DNA of 64,000 nt, taken from NCBI GenBank assembly GCA_002840405.1, contig PHAR01000004.1, positions 1 through 64,000 on the forward strand. The letters run 5' to 3'. Shown piece after piece: positions 13,492 to 21,613 of this stretch (positions within the stretch are counted from its first letter, which is position 1; each line of letters opens with the position of its first letter). The notes below the pieces were generated by a model. That model was given only the letters and a program-made list of their open reading frames with translations, made no database searches and was not told the origin of the DNA. This DNA is from Deltaproteobacteria bacterium HGW-Deltaproteobacteria-8. GTDB taxonomy: Bacteria > Desulfobacterota > Desulfovibrionia > Desulfovibrionales > Desulfovibrionaceae. The translations under genes were made by a program, and so were the position numbers.

Positions 13492-14865
13492 ATGTTGCTC
13501 AGACACACACCCAAGGAAATCGTTGATCGCAGCGCCCTGGTCATCAACCCGGCCAAGACCTGCCAGCCCATCGGGGCCATGTACGCAGCACTCGGCATCC
13601 ACGGCTGCCTGCCGCACAGCCACGGCTCCCAGGGCTGCTGCGCCTACCACAGAAGTGCGCTTACCAAGCACTACAAGGAGCCCATCAACGCCGCCACCAG
13701 CTCCTTCACCGAGGGCGCCAGCGTGTTCGGCGGGCAGGCCAACCTGCTCCAGGCCATCGAGAACATCTTCACGGTCTACGAGCCGGAAGTCATCGCCGTG
13801 CACACCACCTGCCTGTCGGAGACCATCGGCGACGACATCAAGCAGATCCGCGACAAGGCTGAGAAGTCCGGCACGGTGCCCAAGGGCAAGCATGTCATCT
13901 TCTGCAACACGCCCTCGTACATCGGCTCGCATGTCACGGGCTTCTCCAACATGGTCAAGGGCATGACCGAGTTCGCCGAGAACACGGGCAAGAAGAACGG
14001 CAAGGTCAACCTCATCCCCGGCTGGGTCGAACCCTCGGACATGGAGGAGCTCAAGCGCCTGGCCGCACTGCTGAACGTGCCCATCACCATGTTCCCGGAC
14101 ACCTCCGGCGTCCTGAACGGACCGCTCTCCGGCGAGTTCAAGATGTTCCCCGAGGGTGGCGTGACCATGAAGGAGCTGAAGGAGTCCGGCGACGCCGTCG
14201 GCACCCTGGCCCTGGGCGAATGGTGCAGCGCGGACGCCGCGCGCAGCCTGGACACCCGCTGCAAGGTGCCCTGCAAGGTGCTGGACATGGCCTTTGGCCT
14301 CAAGGCCACGGACCGCTTCATCGACGCCCTGCGCACCATCGCAGGCACGAGCGTGCCCGAGGAGATCAACCGCGAGCGCGGCCAGCTGGTGGACATGATC
14401 AGCGACTCCCACCAGTACTTCTTCCAGAAGAAGGTGGCGCTCTTCGGCGACCCGGACCAGCTCATCAGTATGACCGAGTTCCTGGTGTCCATCGACATGT
14501 GGCCCATGCACATCGTCACCGGAACCCCGGGCAAGAAGTTCGAGAAGCGCATCCGGGAACTGACCGCGCACCTGCCCTATGAGGTCAACGTCAAGACCGG
14601 CGGGGACATGTTCCTGCTGCACCAGTGGATCAAGAACGAGCCCGTGGATCTGCTCATCGGCAACTCGTATGGCAAGTACATCGCCCGCGACGAGGACATC
14701 CCCTTCCTGCGCTGGGGCTTCCCCATCCTGGACCGCGTCGGGCACCAGTACTTCCCCACCGTCGGCTACAAGGGCGGCCTGCGCCTGCTGGAGAAGATCC
14801 TGGGCCTGATCCTTGACCGCAAGGACCGCGACGACTCCGAGATCCAGTTCGAGCTGACCCTGTAA
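13492..14865 (+). CDS. nifK: Nitrogenase MoFe protein beta chain
   Basis: Beta subunit of dinitrogenase (457 aa), contributing the other half of the P-cluster through cysteines in CQPIGAMYA, HGSQGCCAYHR and TTCLSETIGDD. It lacks the roughly 50-residue N-terminal extension of Azotobacter NifK, as in clostridial-type enzymes with a longer NifD. It starts 13 bases after nifD. Confidence 0.97.
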   Translation: MLLRHTPKEIVDRSALVINPAKTCQPIGAMYAALGIHGCLPHSHGSQGCCAYHRSALTKHYKEPINAATSSFTEGASVFGGQANLLQAIENIFTVYEPEVIAVHTTCLSETIGDDIKQIRDKAEKSGTVPKGKHVIFCNTPSYIGSHVTGFSNMVKGMTEFAENTGKKNGKVNLIPGWVEPSDMEELKRLAALLNVPITMFPDTSGVLNGPLSGEFKMFPEGGVTMKELKESGDAVGTLALGEWCSADAARSLDTRCKVPCKVLDMAFGLKATDRFIDALRTIAGTSVPEEINRERGQLVDMISDSHQYFFQKKVALFGDPDQLISMTEFLVSIDMWPMHIVTGTPGKKFEKRIRELTAHLPYEVNVKTGGDMFLLHQWIKNEPVDLLIGNSYGKYIARDEDIPFLRWGFPILDRVGHQYFPTVGYKGGLRLLEKILGLILDRKDRDDSEIQFELTL

Positions 14866-14959
14866 CCTCCCCTGTCCCCTGGTCCGGATCTCTCTGGTCC
14901 GGGCCGGGGGCGGGACAAACCTTCGCGGAACATCGTTACCGCACGAACAGGAGCCTCAC
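14866..14959 (+). other. nifK to NifB-like spacer with direct repeat
   Basis: This 94-base spacer is one of the longest inside the operon. CTGGTCCGG occurs twice 17 bases apart, and the second copy can pair imperfectly with the first as a small hairpin. There is no T-tract and no sigma54 site, so I read it as an intercistronic spacer and not a terminator. Confidence 0.4.
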
Positions 14960-16234
14960 ATGCCAGACGCCGCCAGCCCCTCCCGCTTCACCTCCCACCC
15001 CTGCTTCGCAGCCGGGGCGCGGGCGCATGCCGGGCGCATCCACCTGCCCGTGGCCACGCGCAGCAACATCCGCCGCCGCTTCGGCGAACCCGAGACCCCC
15101 GGCCGCACGCTGTCGCCCAAGGAAGTGCTGCTGTGGCTGGACCGCGTGCTGGCAGGCACGGCGGCCAATGCAGCGGGTGAGGGCAAGGAGGGCGGCGTGA
15201 GCATCTCCATGGTCGGCATCACCGGCCCTGGCGAGCCTTTGGCAGATCCCGGCCCGACCTTTGAGACCCTGCGTGCCGTTCGCGCGGCGCACCCCGAGCT
15301 GGCCCTGACCCTGGCCACCAACGGCCTCGCCGCCGCCGAGCACGCGGGCGAGCTTGCCAGCCTCGGCCTGTCCCACGTCACCGTGCTGGTGGACGCCGTG
15401 GACCCCGGCCTGGTGGAACAGCTTTACGCCTGGATCCGCCCGGGCCTGCGCACCCTGCCCCTGCCCGAGGCCTCGCGCCTGCTGGTGGACGCCCAGGCCA
15501 AGGCCATCCGCGCCCTGCGCGAGGCCGGGCTCTTCGTCAAGGTGAACATGACCGTGTACGCGGGCCTGAACGAGGAACACGTGGTCGACGTGGCCAACGC
15601 CGTGGCCGCCCTTGGCGCGGACATGCTGGCCCTGACGCCCTTTGCCCCGGCCTGCTGCGGCCCGGCCTGCTGCGACCCGGCACAGGAAGCGGAAAGCAGC
15701 CCCAAGGCGCCCTCCCCCGAGCGCATGGACGAGCTGCGCGCACTGGCGGGCCGGTTCATCGCCATGATGCCCGCCTTCGACTCCTGCGGCCAGAACATCG
15801 TCGGCCTGGAGAACGCCAGCCCTGATCTGTTCCTGACCCCGACCCTGCCCATGCCTTCGGGCGCGCGCGTCAACGTGGCCGTGGCCAGCGCCAGCGGCCT
15901 GGACGTGGACCTGCATCTGGGCCAGGCCATCCGCTTCCTCATCTTCGGCCCGCGCGAAAGCGACGGGCTGCCGAGCCTGCTGGGCACCCGCGAGGCCCCG
16001 GAGCCCATCTCCAGCGGCTCCCCCGCCGGGACCAACACCCGCTGGGAGGCCCTGGCCGAGACCCTGTACGACTGCTTCGCCATCCTGGCCGCCAGCGCCG
16101 GGGCGCCCCCGCGCGAGTTCCTGGCCACCAAGGGCATCACCGTGCTCACCGGCGAGGCCGAGATCCAGGGCGCGGTGGACGCGCTCTTCGGCGGCGGCAA
16201 GAAGGGCTGCAAAAAGAGAATCAAAGCAAATTAA
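14960..16234 (+). CDS. NifB paralogue lacking the radical-SAM cysteines, with C-terminal NifX-like domain
   Basis: This 424-aa protein aligns end to end with the true NifB at 20050. It keeps HPCF (Cys15), GRIHLPVA, GITGPGEP and the C-terminal NifX/NafY-like domain (VNVAVASASGLDVDLHLGQA), but the catalytic features are gone. The three SAM-cluster cysteines of NifB (C38, C42, C45) correspond to Ser35, Arg39 and Gly42. The GTCGR cysteine is Ala24, ESRPGV is missing, and CRRCRADAVG has become DSCGQNIVG. Extra cysteines appear in a CCGPACCDP segment. It therefore should not cleave SAM. As the operon has no separate nifX or nafY, a cofactor-carrier or scaffold role is my inference. The frame is intact, with codon use like its neighbours, so it is not decaying. 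Confidence 0.8.
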   Translation: MPDAASPSRFTSHPCFAAGARAHAGRIHLPVATRSNIRRRFGEPETPGRTLSPKEVLLWLDRVLAGTAANAAGEGKEGGVSISMVGITGPGEPLADPGPTFETLRAVRAAHPELALTLATNGLAAAEHAGELASLGLSHVTVLVDAVDPGLVEQLYAWIRPGLRTLPLPEASRLLVDAQAKAIRALREAGLFVKVNMTVYAGLNEEHVVDVANAVAALGADMLALTPFAPACCGPACCDPAQEAESSPKAPSPERMDELRALAGRFIAMMPAFDSCGQNIVGLENASPDLFLTPTLPMPSGARVNVAVASASGLDVDLHLGQAIRFLIFGPRESDGLPSLLGTREAPEPISSGSPAGTNTRWEALAETLYDCFAILAASAGAPPREFLATKGITVLTGEAEIQGAVDALFGGGKKGCKKRIKAN

Positions 16235-16291
16235 TCCGGATTGTTGAAGCCAAGAATCCATCAACACACATACTTGAGAAGGAGCATCATC

Positions 16292-16594
16292 ATGGCACTG
16301 CCCGAAAAACTCATCCTGGTCTGTCAGAGCTTCCGCCTCGGCAAGGAGCCCAAGGGCATCTGCCACAAGGGGACCGACGGCCTGCTGCAATACATCGAGG
16401 AAGGCATCCTGGACCGCGGCCTGGACGTGCAGGTGGCCACCACCGGCTGCCTCAAGCAGTGTGAGAAAGGCCCTGTCCTGGTCATCCAGCCCGACAACCT
16501 CTGGTTCAAAGGCGTGAACAGCGAAGAGGCCATCGACGCCATCCTGGACGGCCTGGAGTCGGGCGAGCCCGCTGCCGAGTACCTGCTGTCCTAG
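16292..16594 (+). CDS. Thioredoxin-like [2Fe-2S] ferredoxin
   Basis: A 100-aa thioredoxin-fold 2Fe-2S ferredoxin, the type often encoded beside nifE/N. Ligand cysteines are in VCQSFRLG, GICHKG and TTGCLKQCEKGPV (C-x3-C). I chose the second ATG because GAGAAGGAG precedes it and MALPEKLILVC is the family N-terminus. An 17-codon upstream extension is unlikely. Its place between the NifB-like gene and nifE suggests electron supply to, or redox poise of, cofactor assembly. Confidence 0.87.
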   Translation: MALPEKLILVCQSFRLGKEPKGICHKGTDGLLQYIEEGILDRGLDVQVATTGCLKQCEKGPVLVIQPDNLWFKGVNSEEAIDAILDGLESGEPAAEYLLS

Positions 16595-16624: not shown

Positions 16625-17089
16625 ATGACCGCCGCCTGCATCATCCGCGAAGCCCGCACGAGCGACCTGGACGCCCTGGCCGGGCTGCTGGGCCTGCTCT
16701 TCGCCCTGGAGGCGGACTTCGCGGCCTGCGCGACGGACACGCAGCGGCAGAAGAGGGGCCTCACGCTGCTGCTCCAGGGCCGCCAGCGCCTGGTGCTCGT
16801 GGCCGATGCCGACGGCCTTGTCGTCGGCATGGCCACGGCCCAGGTGGGGGTCTCCACGGCCGAGGGCGGCCCGGCCCTCCTGGTGGAGGACGTGGTGGTC
16901 CGGCCCGAATCGCGCGGCCAGGGCATCGGCCGAGCCCTGCTCAAGCGGATCGAAGCCTGGGGCGCGGACCTGGGCGCCACGCGCCTGCAACTGCTGGCCG
17001 ACAAGGACAACGCCCCGGCCTTCGACTTTTACCGCGCCTGCGGCTTTCACACCACAAACCTCGTCTGCCTGCGGCGCACCCTGCCCTAG
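16625..17089 (+). CDS. GNAT-family N-acetyltransferase in the nif operon
   Basis: A 154-aa GNAT acetyltransferase. The acetyl-CoA loop is VVVRPESRGQGIGRALLKR, followed by the C-terminal DFYRACGFHTTN motif. The substrate cannot be read from the sequence. It stands 30 bases after the ferredoxin and 23 before nifE, on the same strand, so it would be induced with nitrogenase. It could acetylate a nitrogenase-related protein or a small molecule. This is inferred only from position. Confidence 0.82.
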   Translation: MTAACIIREARTSDLDALAGLLGLLFALEADFAACATDTQRQKRGLTLLLQGRQRLVLVADADGLVVGMATAQVGVSTAEGGPALLVEDVVVRPESRGQGIGRALLKRIEAWGADLGATRLQLLADKDNAPAFDFYRACGFHTTNLVCLRRTLP

Positions 17090-17112: not shown

Positions 17113-18585
17113 ATGACCGAGACAGCCAAGGCCATCACACCGGAAATCATCGCCTGCCCCGACGAGAGCGTGGCCATCCCTGTGGAGCGTGTCGCCATAT
17201 TCGACGAGCGCAAGGACCAGATCCACCGCATCGGCGAGGGCGCATTCTCCATGGCCTGCAACCGCGACTCGCTCGCCGGGGCCGTAAGCCAGCGCGCCTG
17301 CGTGTTCTGCGGCTCGCGCGTGGTGCTGTACCCCATCGCCGACGCCCTGCACCTGGTGCACGGGCCCATCGGCTGCGCGGCCTACACCTGGGACATCCGC
17401 GGCGCGCTCTCCAGCGGCCCGGAACTGCACCGGCTGTCCTTCTCCACGGACCTGCAGGAACTGGATGTGGTCTTCGGCGGCGAGAAGAAGCTGGCCAAGG
17501 CTCTGGACGAGCTCATCCCGCGCTACGAGCCCAAGGCCGCCTTTGTCTACTCCACCTGCATCGTGGGCCTCATCGGCGACGACCTGGCCGCTGTCTGCAA
17601 GGCGGCCAGCGAACGCCACGGCATCCCGGTGATTCCGGTGCAGAGCGAGGGCTTCAAGGGCAACAAGCGCGAGGGTTACCTGGCCGCGTGCAAGGCCATG
17701 CGCACGCTGGTCGGCACCGGCGACATCTCGGACATCTCTCCCCTGTCTGTGAATATCATGGGCGACTTCAACCTGGCGGGCGAGACCTGGATCATCACGG
17801 ACTACCTGAACCGCATGGGCGTGGAGGTGGTGGCCGGGATCACGGGCGACGGCCGGGTGGACGACTTGCGCCGGGCGCACGGGGCCGGCCTGAACATCGT
17901 GCAGTGCTCCGGCTCCACCCAGGACCTTGCCAAGATGATGCGCGACGATTTCGGCATCCCGTTTTTGCGCGTGTCCTGGATCGGCATCGAGGACGTGGCC
18001 GAGAGCCTGTACGCCATCGCCGAGCATTTCGAGCTGACCCGGCCCGAGCTGGCCGGAAACATGGTGGAGCGCACGGCCGCCCTTGTCCGCGACGAGCTGG
18101 CCGCGCTCATGCCGCAGATCAAGGAATACCGCCGCGACCTCGAGGGCAAGAAGGCCGCGGTGTACGTGGGCGGCAGCTTCAAGGCCTTCTCCCTGGTCAA
18201 GGCCTTCCGGCACCTCGGCATGGAGGTGGTCATCGTGGGCTCCCAGACCGGCACCGAGGAGGACTACCGCGAGCTGGCCGCCATCTGCGCGCCCGGCACC
18301 ATCGTGGTCGACGACGCCAACCCGCTGGAGCTGGCCGCCTTCATCAAGGAGAAGGACGTGGACGTCTTTGTCGGCGGCGTGAAGGAGCGGCCCATCGCCT
18401 TCAAGCTGGGCGTGGGCTTCTGCGACCACAACCACGAGCGCAAGATCGCCCTGGAAGGCTTCATCGGCATGCTCAACTTCGCCCGCGAAGTGCACGCCTC
18501 GGTCATGAGTCCCATCTGGAACTTCGTGCCCCGCCGCGAGCTCCAGAACAGCAAGCCCGCCCTCAACGCAGGCGAGGAGGCGTAG
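17113..18585 (+). CDS. nifE: FeMo-cofactor scaffold protein NifE
   Basis: NifD-like half of the NifEN scaffold (490 aa) on which the NifB-cofactor is matured with Mo and homocitrate. The family cysteines are in RACVFCGSRVV, HGPIGCAAYTW and STCIVGLIGDD. The FeMo-cofactor His/Cys pair of NifD is not conserved in the same form. It is preceded by a short gap from the GNAT gene, and nifN starts 3 bases after its stop. Confidence 0.96.
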   Translation: MTETAKAITPEIIACPDESVAIPVERVAIFDERKDQIHRIGEGAFSMACNRDSLAGAVSQRACVFCGSRVVLYPIADALHLVHGPIGCAAYTWDIRGALSSGPELHRLSFSTDLQELDVVFGGEKKLAKALDELIPRYEPKAAFVYSTCIVGLIGDDLAAVCKAASERHGIPVIPVQSEGFKGNKREGYLAACKAMRTLVGTGDISDISPLSVNIMGDFNLAGETWIITDYLNRMGVEVVAGITGDGRVDDLRRAHGAGLNIVQCSGSTQDLAKMMRDDFGIPFLRVSWIGIEDVAESLYAIAEHFELTRPELAGNMVERTAALVRDELAALMPQIKEYRRDLEGKKAAVYVGGSFKAFSLVKAFRHLGMEVVIVGSQTGTEEDYRELAAICAPGTIVVDDANPLELAAFIKEKDVDVFVGGVKERPIAFKLGVGFCDHNHERKIALEGFIGMLNFAREVHASVMSPIWNFVPRRELQNSKPALNAGEEA

Positions 18586-18588
18586 GCC

Positions 18589-20022
18589 ATGAACGACACA
18601 GCCGTCCTGAACCCCGTCGCCGACAACCCCGTCATCGACAGCCCGGGCAACGAGTACAAGGGCCAATACAATGGTCCGTCCAACGTCTCCACCACCAACG
18701 CCTGCAAGCTCTGCACGCCGCTGGGCGCCACCCTGGCCTTCAAGGGCGTGGAGGGCGCGGTGAGCTTCCTGCACGGCTCCCAGGGCTGCGCCACCTACAT
18801 GCGCCGCTACATCATCAGCCACTTCCGCGAGCCCATGGACATCGCGTCCAGCGCGCTGGGCGAGAAGAACGCCATCTACGGCGGCGGGCCGAACCTCAAG
18901 AAGGGCCTCTTGAACGCCATGCAGAAGTACGGCGCGGGCGTCATCGGCGTGGCCACCACCTGCCTCACCGAGACCATCGGCGACGATGTGGCCCGACTGC
19001 TCATCGAGTTCCGCGAGGAGTTCAAGGACCTGCCCCTGGCCGAGCTGGTGCACGTATCCACGCCGAGTTACTCCGGCACGCACATGGACGGCTTCCACGG
19101 CGCGGTCAAGGCCATGGCCGACCAGCTGTGCGTGGAGAAGGCCCCGGCCAATTCCCGCGTGAACCTGTTCTCCGGCATGGTCTCCCCGGCCGACATCCGC
19201 CACCTGAAGGAGATCTGCCGCGCGTTCGGCATCGAGCCCATCATCCTGCCGGACTACTCCGAGACGCTCGATGGCCCGGCGCTGCTGGAATACGAAAACA
19301 TCCCCTCGGGCGGCACCCCGCTCTCCGACCTGCGGAGCATGTCCGGCGCGCGCGCCTCCATCGAGCTGGGCCGCGCCATCAGCGCGCAAGAGACCGCCGG
19401 CACCTCGCTGAGCGGGCGCTTCGGCGTGCCCCTGTTCCGCCTGGGCCTGCCCATGGGCATCCGCGAGACCGACAGCCTGTTCGCGGCGCTCAAGTCCATC
19501 ACCGGGGTGGAGACCCCGCGCGAGCTGGCCCTTGAGCGCGGCCGCTACGTGGACGCCCTGGTGGACGGCCACAAGTACGTGTCGGGCCTGAAGGCCGTCA
19601 TCTACGGCGAGGAGGACCTGTGCATCGGGCTCACCAGCTTCCTGGCCGAGATCGGCGTCACGCCGGTGCTGGTGGCCACGGGCGCCAAGAACCGCAACCT
19701 GGCCGCGCACATCGAGGCGGCCTGCGGCTCCGTGCTGCGGCATCAGCCCATCGTGCGCGAGGGCGCGGACTTCTTTGACATCGTGGAAGAGGCCAAGACG
19801 CTTTCGCCCGACCTGCTGGTGGGCCACAGCAAGGGCCAGCGGGCCGCGCGCGAGTGGAACATCCCCCTTCTGCGGGTGGGCTTCCCCATCCACGACCGCT
19901 TCGGCGGGCAGCGCCTGCTGCACCTGGGCTACCGGGGCGCGCAGAGCCTCTTCGACCGCCTGGTGAATCTCGTCCTGGAAAAGAAGCAGAACGATTCCGA
20001 CATCGGCTACGGATACCTCTAG
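18589..20022 (+). CDS. nifN: FeMo-cofactor scaffold protein NifN
   Basis: NifK-like half of the NifEN scaffold (477 aa). It has TTNACKLCTPLGATLAF, HGSQGCATYMRRY and TTCLTETIGDD, the NifN versions of the P-cluster regions. It is not fused to NifB, unlike the NifN-B fusions of some anaerobes. It starts 3 bases after nifE with GGCGAGGAGG overlapping the nifE 3' end, so translation is probably coupled. Confidence 0.95.
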   Translation: MNDTAVLNPVADNPVIDSPGNEYKGQYNGPSNVSTTNACKLCTPLGATLAFKGVEGAVSFLHGSQGCATYMRRYIISHFREPMDIASSALGEKNAIYGGGPNLKKGLLNAMQKYGAGVIGVATTCLTETIGDDVARLLIEFREEFKDLPLAELVHVSTPSYSGTHMDGFHGAVKAMADQLCVEKAPANSRVNLFSGMVSPADIRHLKEICRAFGIEPIILPDYSETLDGPALLEYENIPSGGTPLSDLRSMSGARASIELGRAISAQETAGTSLSGRFGVPLFRLGLPMGIRETDSLFAALKSITGVETPRELALERGRYVDALVDGHKYVSGLKAVIYGEEDLCIGLTSFLAEIGVTPVLVATGAKNRNLAAHIEAACGSVLRHQPIVREGADFFDIVEEAKTLSPDLLVGHSKGQRAAREWNIPLLRVGFPIHDRFGGQRLLHLGYRGAQSLFDRLVNLVLEKKQNDSDIGYGYL

Positions 20023-20049: not shown

Positions 20050-21345
20050 ATGCAGACCATCATCACTACTCCTGTCGACCCGAAGTCCGTCAAGCACCCC
20101 TGCTTCAACAAGGAGTCGTCTGGCACCTGCGGCCGCGTGCACCTGCCCGTGGCGCCCAAGTGCAATATCCAGTGCAATTACTGCAACCGCAAGTACGACT
20201 GCGTGAACGAGTCGCGCCCGGGCGTCACCAGCGGCATCCTGAAGCCCTTCCAGGCCCTGGAATACACCCGGCAGGTGCTGGACCGCGAGCCGCGCATCAC
20301 GGTCATCGGCATCGCCGGGCCGGGCGACCCCATGGCCAACCCGGCGGAGACGCTGGAGACCATGCGCCTCATCCGCACGGAATACCCGCACATGCTCTTC
20401 TGCCTGTCGAGTAACGGCCTGGCCATGCCCGAGTACCTGGACGACCTGGCCGAGCTGGGCGTGACCCACGCCACGGTGACGCTGAACACCGTTGACCCGG
20501 CCATCGGCGCCAAGATCTACTCCTGGGTGCGCGACGGCAATGTGGTCTACCGGGGCCAGGACGCCGCCGAGCTCATCCTGGAGCGCCAGCTTGCAGCCAT
20601 CGCAGGCCTCAAGGCGCGCGGGCTGGCCGTGAAGGTCAACACCATCGTCATTCCGGGCGTGAACGACACCCACATCCAGGCCGTGGCCGAGAAGGCCCAT
20701 GAGCTTGGCGTGGACCTCATGAACCTCATGCCCATGTTCCCCACCGAGGGAACCCCGTTCGGGAACCTCAAGGAGCCGGGCAAGGATGCCATAGAAGCCC
20801 TGCGCGCCGAAGCCGGGCCGCTGGTGGCCCAGATGACCCACTGCCGCCGCTGCCGGGCCGACGCCGTGGGCCTGCTTTGCAACGACCGCTCCACCGAGCT
20901 TGGCGGCGTCTTGGCCGCGTGCAGCAAGATGGCCCCGCAGGCCCAGAACGACCGGCCCTACGTGGCCATTGCCACCCGCGAGGGCCTCTTGGTGAACCTG
21001 CACCTGGGCGAGGCCAAGCGCTTCCAGATCTGGGGCCTTGCTGAAGGCGGTGCCTTCCGCCTGGTGGAAGAACGCCAGGCCCCGTCCGCGGGCTGCGGCC
21101 CCTCGCGCTGGGAGGACCTGGCCAAGCTGTTGTCCGACTGCCGGGCCGTGCTGGTGAGCGCCCTGGGCGACACCCCGCGCAAGATTCTGACCGAGCGCGG
21201 CACCCTGCCCGCAGCCTGCTCCGGGTTCATCGAGGACGCCCTGGCCCTGGCCTTCGGCGAGGACGGCGTGGCCCGGCTGGAGGCCCTGAAGGCGCGGCGC
21301 GGCGGCGTGGGCAAGTCCTGCTGCGGCACGGGCGACGGCTGCTGA
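20050..21345 (+). CDS. nifB: Nitrogenase cofactor biosynthesis radical SAM enzyme NifB
   Basis: Makes the 8Fe-9S-C precursor (NifB-co) from two 4Fe-4S clusters using SAM (431 aa). All hallmarks are present: HPCF (Cys18), GTCGR (Cys27), the radical-SAM triad CNIQCNYC (C38, C42, C45), ESRPGV, AGPGDP, TLNTVDP and CRRCRADAVG. A C-terminal NifX-like domain follows (residues about 310-410, VAIATREGLLVNLHLGEA), and the tail is rich in Cys. It is the catalytic counterpart of the cysteine-less paralogue upstream. GGAAAAGGAG precedes the ATG. Confidence 0.97.
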   Translation: MQTIITTPVDPKSVKHPCFNKESSGTCGRVHLPVAPKCNIQCNYCNRKYDCVNESRPGVTSGILKPFQALEYTRQVLDREPRITVIGIAGPGDPMANPAETLETMRLIRTEYPHMLFCLSSNGLAMPEYLDDLAELGVTHATVTLNTVDPAIGAKIYSWVRDGNVVYRGQDAAELILERQLAAIAGLKARGLAVKVNTIVIPGVNDTHIQAVAEKAHELGVDLMNLMPMFPTEGTPFGNLKEPGKDAIEALRAEAGPLVAQMTHCRRCRADAVGLLCNDRSTELGGVLAACSKMAPQAQNDRPYVAIATREGLLVNLHLGEAKRFQIWGLAEGGAFRLVEERQAPSAGCGPSRWEDLAKLLSDCRAVLVSALGDTPRKILTERGTLPAACSGFIEDALALAFGEDGVARLEALKARRGGVGKSCCGTGDGC

Positions 21346-21349
21346 GCCA

Positions 21350-21613
21350 ATGATGGATTCGTTGACGCTCTTCGGCCTGGCGGCCGTCAGCCTGATGCTG
21401 GCGTGCTACGCCCTGGAGGACAGGAGCCCCTGGTTCGTGCTGGCTTTCGCCGGCTCCTGCGCCCTGGGCTCGGTCTACGGGTTCCTGCAGGGGGCCTGGC
21501 CCTTCGGGCTGGTGGAGGCGGTGTGGTCCGTGGTGGCGGTGTTCCGCTGGCGCAGGCTGCGCCGGGAGCAGAACAGCAGGAGCCTGCTGAGCCTGCGCAG
21601 CGTGGCCAGCTGA
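21350..21613 (+). CDS. Small membrane protein at the end of the nif operon
   Basis: An 87-aa protein with about three hydrophobic segments (DSLTLFGLAAVSLMLACYAL, WFVLAFAGSCALGSVYGFLQ, FGLVEAVWSVVAVFRW) and a basic tail. The last segment resembles small uncharacterised membrane proteins found widely in proteobacteria. I know of no function. It starts 4 bases after the nifB stop, so it is almost certainly translated from the nif transcript. A terminator hairpin follows. Confidence 0.65.
   Translation: MMDSLTLFGLAAVSLMLACYALEDRSPWFVLAFAGSCALGSVYGFLQGAWPFGLVEAVWSVVAVFRWRRLRREQNSRSLLSLRSVAS

Follow-up and report, generated by a model that had tools for sequence, protein, structure and literature searches.

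The window, that is, the whole 64,000-nucleotide stretch of DNA analysed here, contains a nif operon arranged as nifH-I1-I2-D-K, a gene related to nifB, a [2Fe-2S] ferredoxin-like gene, a GNAT gene, nifE, nifN, nifB and a small ORF, with nifV divergent (Table 1). We call the place between nifK and the ferredoxin-like gene the “slot”, and its occupant the slot gene. As the initial annotation stated, its frame is open and its codon use is normal (GC3 of 0.913 versus 0.92-0.95 for nifB, nifE, nifN and nifK), and the cluster contains no separate nifX or nafY. Several families share the GNAT gene (16625-17089), which keeps its place after the ferredoxin-like gene and ahead of nifE. The small ORF (21350-21613), located 4 bp after nifB, encodes a hydrophobic protein of 87 aa that occurs in several congeners (65-88% identity) and has no family match.

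Table 1. Features of the slot gene and its neighbours (coordinates of the window)
Feature	Position	Strand	Remarks
NifB-derived, radical-SAM-dead paralogue, 424 aa	14960..16234	+	slot between nifK and [2Fe-2S] ferredoxin-like gene
Dead radical-SAM (NifB-type) barrel, residues ~10-230	14987..15649	+	HPCF, GRIHLPVA, GPGEP, ATNG, YAWIRPG kept
Retained K1-type ligands HPCF C15 and GRIH H28	14996..15043	+	third (NifB C118) is T117; ligand roles from PMC9692996
Site of the CxxxCxxC triad	15062..15085	+	now S35, R39, G42
Cys-rich loop ACCGPACCDP, residues 231-240	15650..15679	+	
C276, second Cys of the former CxxCR site	15785..15787	+	kept in 12/12 aligned congeners and most related genera
NifX-like (Nitro_FeMo-Co) domain, residues ~303-411	15866..16192	+	
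H319 in DLHLG, aligned with NifX H35 (NifB-co ligand)	15914..15916	+	67/67 orthologues; PMC13128457
Basic C-terminal tail GGGKKGCKKRIKAN	16190..16231	+	family-typical (57/67 by pattern)
nifK, upstream neighbour	13492..14865	+	94 bp gap to slot gene
[2Fe-2S] ferredoxin-like gene	16241..16594	+	6 bp downstream of slot gene; ORF as listed, start ~50 bp further in likely
GNAT acetyltransferase	16625..17089	+	often in the same operon position
nifE and nifN	17113..20022	+	
True nifB	20050..21345	+	catalytic motifs complete

The slot protein is a NifB homologue by descent, since it shows both end-to-end homology and the NifB barrel. BLASTP aligns its residues 9-411 with residues 12-403 of the window’s true NifB (203 bits, 33% identity, E 2e-65), which bears out the full-length alignment proposed earlier, together with the retention of HPCF, GRIHLPVA, GPGEP and the NifX-like domain. 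Against the NCBIfam nifB model (TIGR01290) it scores 173.6 bits, under the cut-off of 343.65, while the true NifB reaches 393.5. An AlphaFold model of the slot protein remained of low confidence (pLDDT 44 with 6 sequences, mean pLDDT 56 with 12), and its best fold matches were the NifB structures 7jma, 7jmb, 7bi7 and 6y1x (Z 18.6-19.1 over 206-223 residues); the fold match is clear, and the side chains of such a model are unusable for ligand geometry. The whole protein matches PF02579 with 26.2 bits at a cut-off of 26.3, and with 28.6 bits, above the cut-off, in the genome search, while the nifX model TIGR02663 gave no match to it. Five more places in the genome match PF02579; the three proteins scanned there are MrpORP matches, and a rival nifX is not evident among them. 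At G000:C3:158594-162700 three PF02579 genes lie close by, one adjoining an Mrp/ParA-type ATPase and one a ferredoxin-bearing ATPase, which looks like an ORP/MrpORP-type locus.

The alignment with NifB confirms the substitutions read earlier at two sites: the radical-SAM triad C38/C42/C45 is replaced by S35/R39/G42, and CxxCRADA (the CxxCRxDAxG site) is reduced to DSCGQN, so that of the two cluster cysteines near the C-terminus one is replaced. Also missing are ExRP and the loop cysteine of YDC. From the published set of NifB motifs, HPC, ExRP, AGPG, TxTxN and CxxCRxDAxG (PMC5715403), the slot protein has HPC and, in the form TGPG, the GPG motif; the other three are absent. The replacement of the GTCGR cysteine by alanine is seen too (HAGR), but this cysteine is no listed ligand and is missing from both NifBs with a solved structure. 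The cluster ligands of MthNifB are C18, H31, C115 and E53 for K1 and C260 and C263 for K2; in MtNifB a fourth cysteine, C62, also ligates the radical-SAM cluster (PMC9692996). In the numbering of the window’s NifB, the slot protein retains C18 (its C15), H31 (H28) and C268 (C276), and the other cluster ligands are lost. The description of a paralogue stripped of its catalytic cysteines thus holds for the radical-SAM triad but goes too far for the K1 cluster, two ligand positions of which, C15 and H28, are still occupied.

To see how widespread this gene is, 59 related genomes were searched, followed by 288 of the family and then by ~300 and 400 of the phylum. The slot gene is present in most members of the window’s genus, in the genera g3, g5, g8, g14, g15, g39, g41 and g45 of its family, in a more divergent form in g11, g16, g17, g34 and g48, and in six other families of the phylum (f20, f21, f69, f82, f84 and f107). 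In nearly every locus read, including those with nifK in view, it follows nifK immediately and is itself followed by the ferredoxin-like gene. The slot is empty in Nitratidesulfovibrio vulgaris and in the f5 and f2 loci, and several nif clusters of the order are without the gene. A DNA search in plasmids returned distant nifK matches only. On the Nitratidesulfovibrio vulgaris RCH1 plasmid (L031), a gene listed as “NifB/NifX family” (15944-16237) ends together with a 518-aa open nifB frame (14681-16234), of which it covers only the last part; a complete nifB does not appear in the gene table of this locus, although that table is known to have gaps. L064 (G005:C36) is a further nif-like locus, which may encode an alternative nitrogenase: its nifD-like and nifK-like genes are divergent (32-34% identity), and it has a nifB of its own (62%).

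Residue conservation was counted in an alignment of 67 slot proteins, taken from the window’s genus, from numerous other genera in the family and from the six other families, with 78 NifBs. The cysteine-less form is conserved in the related nif clusters: CxxxCxxC is intact in only four of the 67 proteins, all from g11 and g16, and one more row is a fragment without this region. The g16 copies also keep CxxCRADA and have lost HPC and C118, and the g11 copies keep the radical-SAM triad without the K ligands. That the slot protein is still a radical-SAM enzyme, with a cluster bound through other residues, has a negligible probability. The GPG[DE] motif of the SAM-binding loop region persists in 66 of the 67 proteins, and the window’s genus has an additional Cys-rich loop, but the alignment contains no replacement cysteine triad conserved across the family, and this loop lies at the far end of the barrel and, among the sequences read, is confined to the one genus.

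Quick trees built from the radical-SAM part with archaeal NifB as root, which have long branches and SH-aLRT support only, place the slot proteins in one clade apart from NifB (98-99), and the g11 and g16 copies bearing CxxxCxxC as sister to all other slot proteins (95-96). The single clade speaks for one duplication, and the simplest reading of the trees is that the radical-SAM site was probably lost once, in the large branch. The initial annotation held that homologues with an intact CxxxCxxC would indicate a pseudogene; such homologues exist, as four orthologues of two genera, but as a sister group occupying the same slot they date the loss instead. Whole operons have likely been transferred between families.

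In the genus g32 of family f4 the slot is occupied by a stand-alone NifX domain of ~115-147 aa, and the barrel is absent. In the best-scoring cases this domain is 46-59% identical to the C-termini of slot proteins versus 36-40% to those of NifB, and it scores 21.3 bits against the nifX model TIGR02663 (cut-off 112). A tree of the NifX domain (109 columns) nests it with g39 (98), by which the f4 form may be a truncated slot protein from within the slot clade, but the AU test does not reject a tree that puts it outside the slot proteins (p-AU 0.58).

The slot gene is under purifying selection, looser than that on nifB: among congeners, dN/dS (Nei-Gojobori) is 0.26-0.44 for the slot gene, 0.15-0.26 for nifB and 0.12-0.25 for nifK. 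Both halves of the slot gene stay below 0.65, and the loop is its fastest part. Clearest of all is that constraint is inverted between the two proteins: the radical-SAM domain is better kept in NifB and the NifX domain in the slot family. The median identity between genera is 39% for the barrel and 55% for the NifX part of slot proteins, versus 65% and 57% for NifB of the same genomes, and of 1240 (non-independent) pairs, 99.9% have a lower barrel/NifX ratio for the slot proteins than for NifB.

Frames are open in nearly all genomes searched. The stops reported in a few g5 and g8 matches possibly represent the natural stop inside the matched range; the one that was read (G021) has an open frame of 389 aa. 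We reject a pseudogene or an artefact on account of synteny, dN/dS and the many genomes in which the frame is open, so that the earlier view of a maintained gene stands. A duplicate in slow decay, almost or wholly without function, would agree with an evolution faster than that of nifB, with motif erosion that varies by lineage and with the nif clusters that do without the gene. We consider it very improbable, since besides the open frames and dN/dS below 0.5 the family, present in several families of the phylum, has features of its own: the YAW[IV]RP motif (YAWIRPG in the window) occurs in 57 of 67 slot proteins and in none of the 78 NifBs, and the tail is basic (GGGKKxxKK), while NifB mostly ends in a Cys/Gly tail (70/78).

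The cluster ligands of the barrel differ between lineages. In g3, g5, g14, g15 and g41 (all copies) and in g8 (all but one), the radical-SAM cysteines are gone and C18, H31 and C118, which with the loop Glu make up the protein ligands of K1, are kept together with C268 (NifB numbering); the f21 proteins retain H31, C118 and a nearby N-terminal cysteine. In the window’s genus C118 is changed to T, S, A or H, and about half of the species have lost HPCF too. Seven of its 12 members (L060, L053, L054, L062, L055, L061 and L063) have a C-x4-C-x2-C-x5/6-C pattern in the loop between the barrel and the NifX domain, which is longer than ACCGPACCDP of the window. With the K1 set in several genera and a new Cys-rich loop in this one, the barrel may still bind a cluster. 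One can suggest on these grounds a pseudoenzyme with a K1-type [4Fe-4S] holding site, feeding or pairing with NifB and supplying precursor clusters instead of carrying finished NifB-co. This is improbable: the K1 ligands are lost in f107, f82, f84, f69 and partly in g39 and g1, though the slot gene is kept there, and f4 does without any barrel, while the histidine of the NifX domain is never lost.

This histidine (HLG) is present in 67 of 67 slot proteins. It aligns with H35 of NifX, in an alignment made with the f4 relative, and in the NifENX hand-over complex H35 is a ligand of NifB-co (PMC13128457). The equivalent ligand for FeMo-co is H121 of NafY, and the roles of NifX and NafY overlap elsewhere (PMC6428710). 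A carrier of the NifX/NafY class accounts most economically for a protein that has lost its enzyme site but never this histidine, and whose gene keeps its place in the nif operon. The shift of constraint to the NifX domain, the constant slot, the single clade, dN/dS, the stand-alone NifX domain in the slot of f4 and the lack of an evident rival nifX speak for it too. We suppose, with a probability of about 0.6, that the slot protein is a radical-SAM-dead NifB paralogue acting as such a cofactor carrier; its cofactor binding, its docking partner and the direction of transfer are what we infer. Most likely, although we propose it tentatively, it would deliver NifB-co from NifB to NifEN; delivery of FeMo-co to NifDK comes next and appears doubtful. 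The initial proposal of a duplicated NifB turned carrier is upheld in part, as the best reading of an old, maintained duplicate with an invariant NifX histidine, with the qualification that the K1 ligands and the Cys-rich loop leave room for cluster binding by the barrel.

The operon position can be read in another way. The slot gene directly follows nifK, as nifY and nafY do in Klebsiella and Azotobacter. Nor is it always beside nifEN, a point that the initial annotation wanted checked: in the split clusters of G030, G059, G488 and G599 it stays with nifHDK, and nifENB is elsewhere. NafY resembles the slot protein in build, its NifX-like C-terminal half, which has a FeMo-co-binding histidine, being preceded by an additional N-terminal part (PMC6428710). 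The slot protein may thus be a chaperone of the NafY/NifY type, which docks on apo-NifDK and delivers finished FeMo-co instead of taking NifB-co to NifEN. We regard this as possible but unlikely: all four splits break downstream of the slot gene, for which plain adjacency suffices, the descent from NifB suggests a first contact with NifB-co, and the aligned histidine cannot separate NifX from NafY.

The dead barrel could be used as a docking module, or could still hold a cluster. NifB docks in a valley of NifEN according to AlphaFold 3 and negative-stain EM (PMC13031127). NifX holds on to NifE with an acidic helix at its C-terminus; the slot protein lacks this helix and has a basic tail, so its docking must differ from that of NifX. 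Besides the missing helix, several points speak against a carrier. The true NifB has a NifX-like domain too, so that a second carrier is not obviously needed, and in Klebsiella NifB this domain is dispensable (PMC5715403). Some nif clusters of the order, including that of Nitratidesulfovibrio vulgaris, are without the slot gene. Finally, a barrel of 230 residues is superfluous for a pure carrier, yet most lineages keep it along with the family-specific motifs. Perhaps the slot protein is rather a maturation scaffold, in which the dead barrel was re-tooled to hold a metal cluster and, with the histidine of the NifX domain, stores and passes NifB-co; the cluster site would be the K1 set in some genera and, in the window’s genus, the four-Cys loop beside the retained C276. 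We give this scaffold only a minor chance, but if it is true, the family records a stepwise change from an enzyme to a carrier: a copy of NifB, loss of the radical-SAM site and loss of the barrel.

Compared with known systems, the slot protein shares with NifB (TIGR01290) the two-domain architecture, the end-to-end homology, the barrel fold, HPC, GPG and the NifX-domain motifs, and differs from it in having no CxxxCxxC, ExRP loop or CxxCRxDAxG, in scoring far below the cut-off and in its own motifs and basic tail. With NifX (TIGR02663) it has in common the NifX-type domain, the NifB-co-ligating histidine (by alignment) and the proposed function, whereas it carries a 230-residue dead NifB barrel, has no acidic NifE-binding helix and is encoded after nifK, not nifEN. 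NafY and NifY, the chaperones of FeMo-co and apo-NifDK, likewise combine a NifX-like C-terminal domain with a separate N-terminal part and a gene after nifK, but the slot protein has a NifB barrel at its N-terminus, which differs in origin from theirs. NifB3 and NifB4 of Paenibacillus are likewise extra, divergent copies of NifB, and some of them are without CxxCRxDAxG; these keep the radical-SAM motif as described, are regarded as possible pseudogenes and were described in Paenibacillus only (PMC8287671). A search of open-access papers brought up no account of a cysteine-less NifB family in sulfate reducers. A survey of 2017 discarded 28% of its putative NifBs because they lacked motifs (PMC5715403), so slot-type proteins may have been among those met with and dropped there.

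FeMo-cofactor trafficking is poorly understood where NifX-type carriers, and the NifX domain that is fused to NifB, are concerned. Since the NifX domain is the best-kept part of this dead NifB, the family represents a natural experiment separating the carrier from the enzyme. The finding would correct the automatic annotation of slot genes as NifB or radical SAM proteins, and for nitrogenase engineering it offers a candidate carrier co-evolved with one type of operon. If the slot protein is a carrier, it would explain how the cofactor moves in a large group of sulfate reducers without a recognised nifX or nafY.
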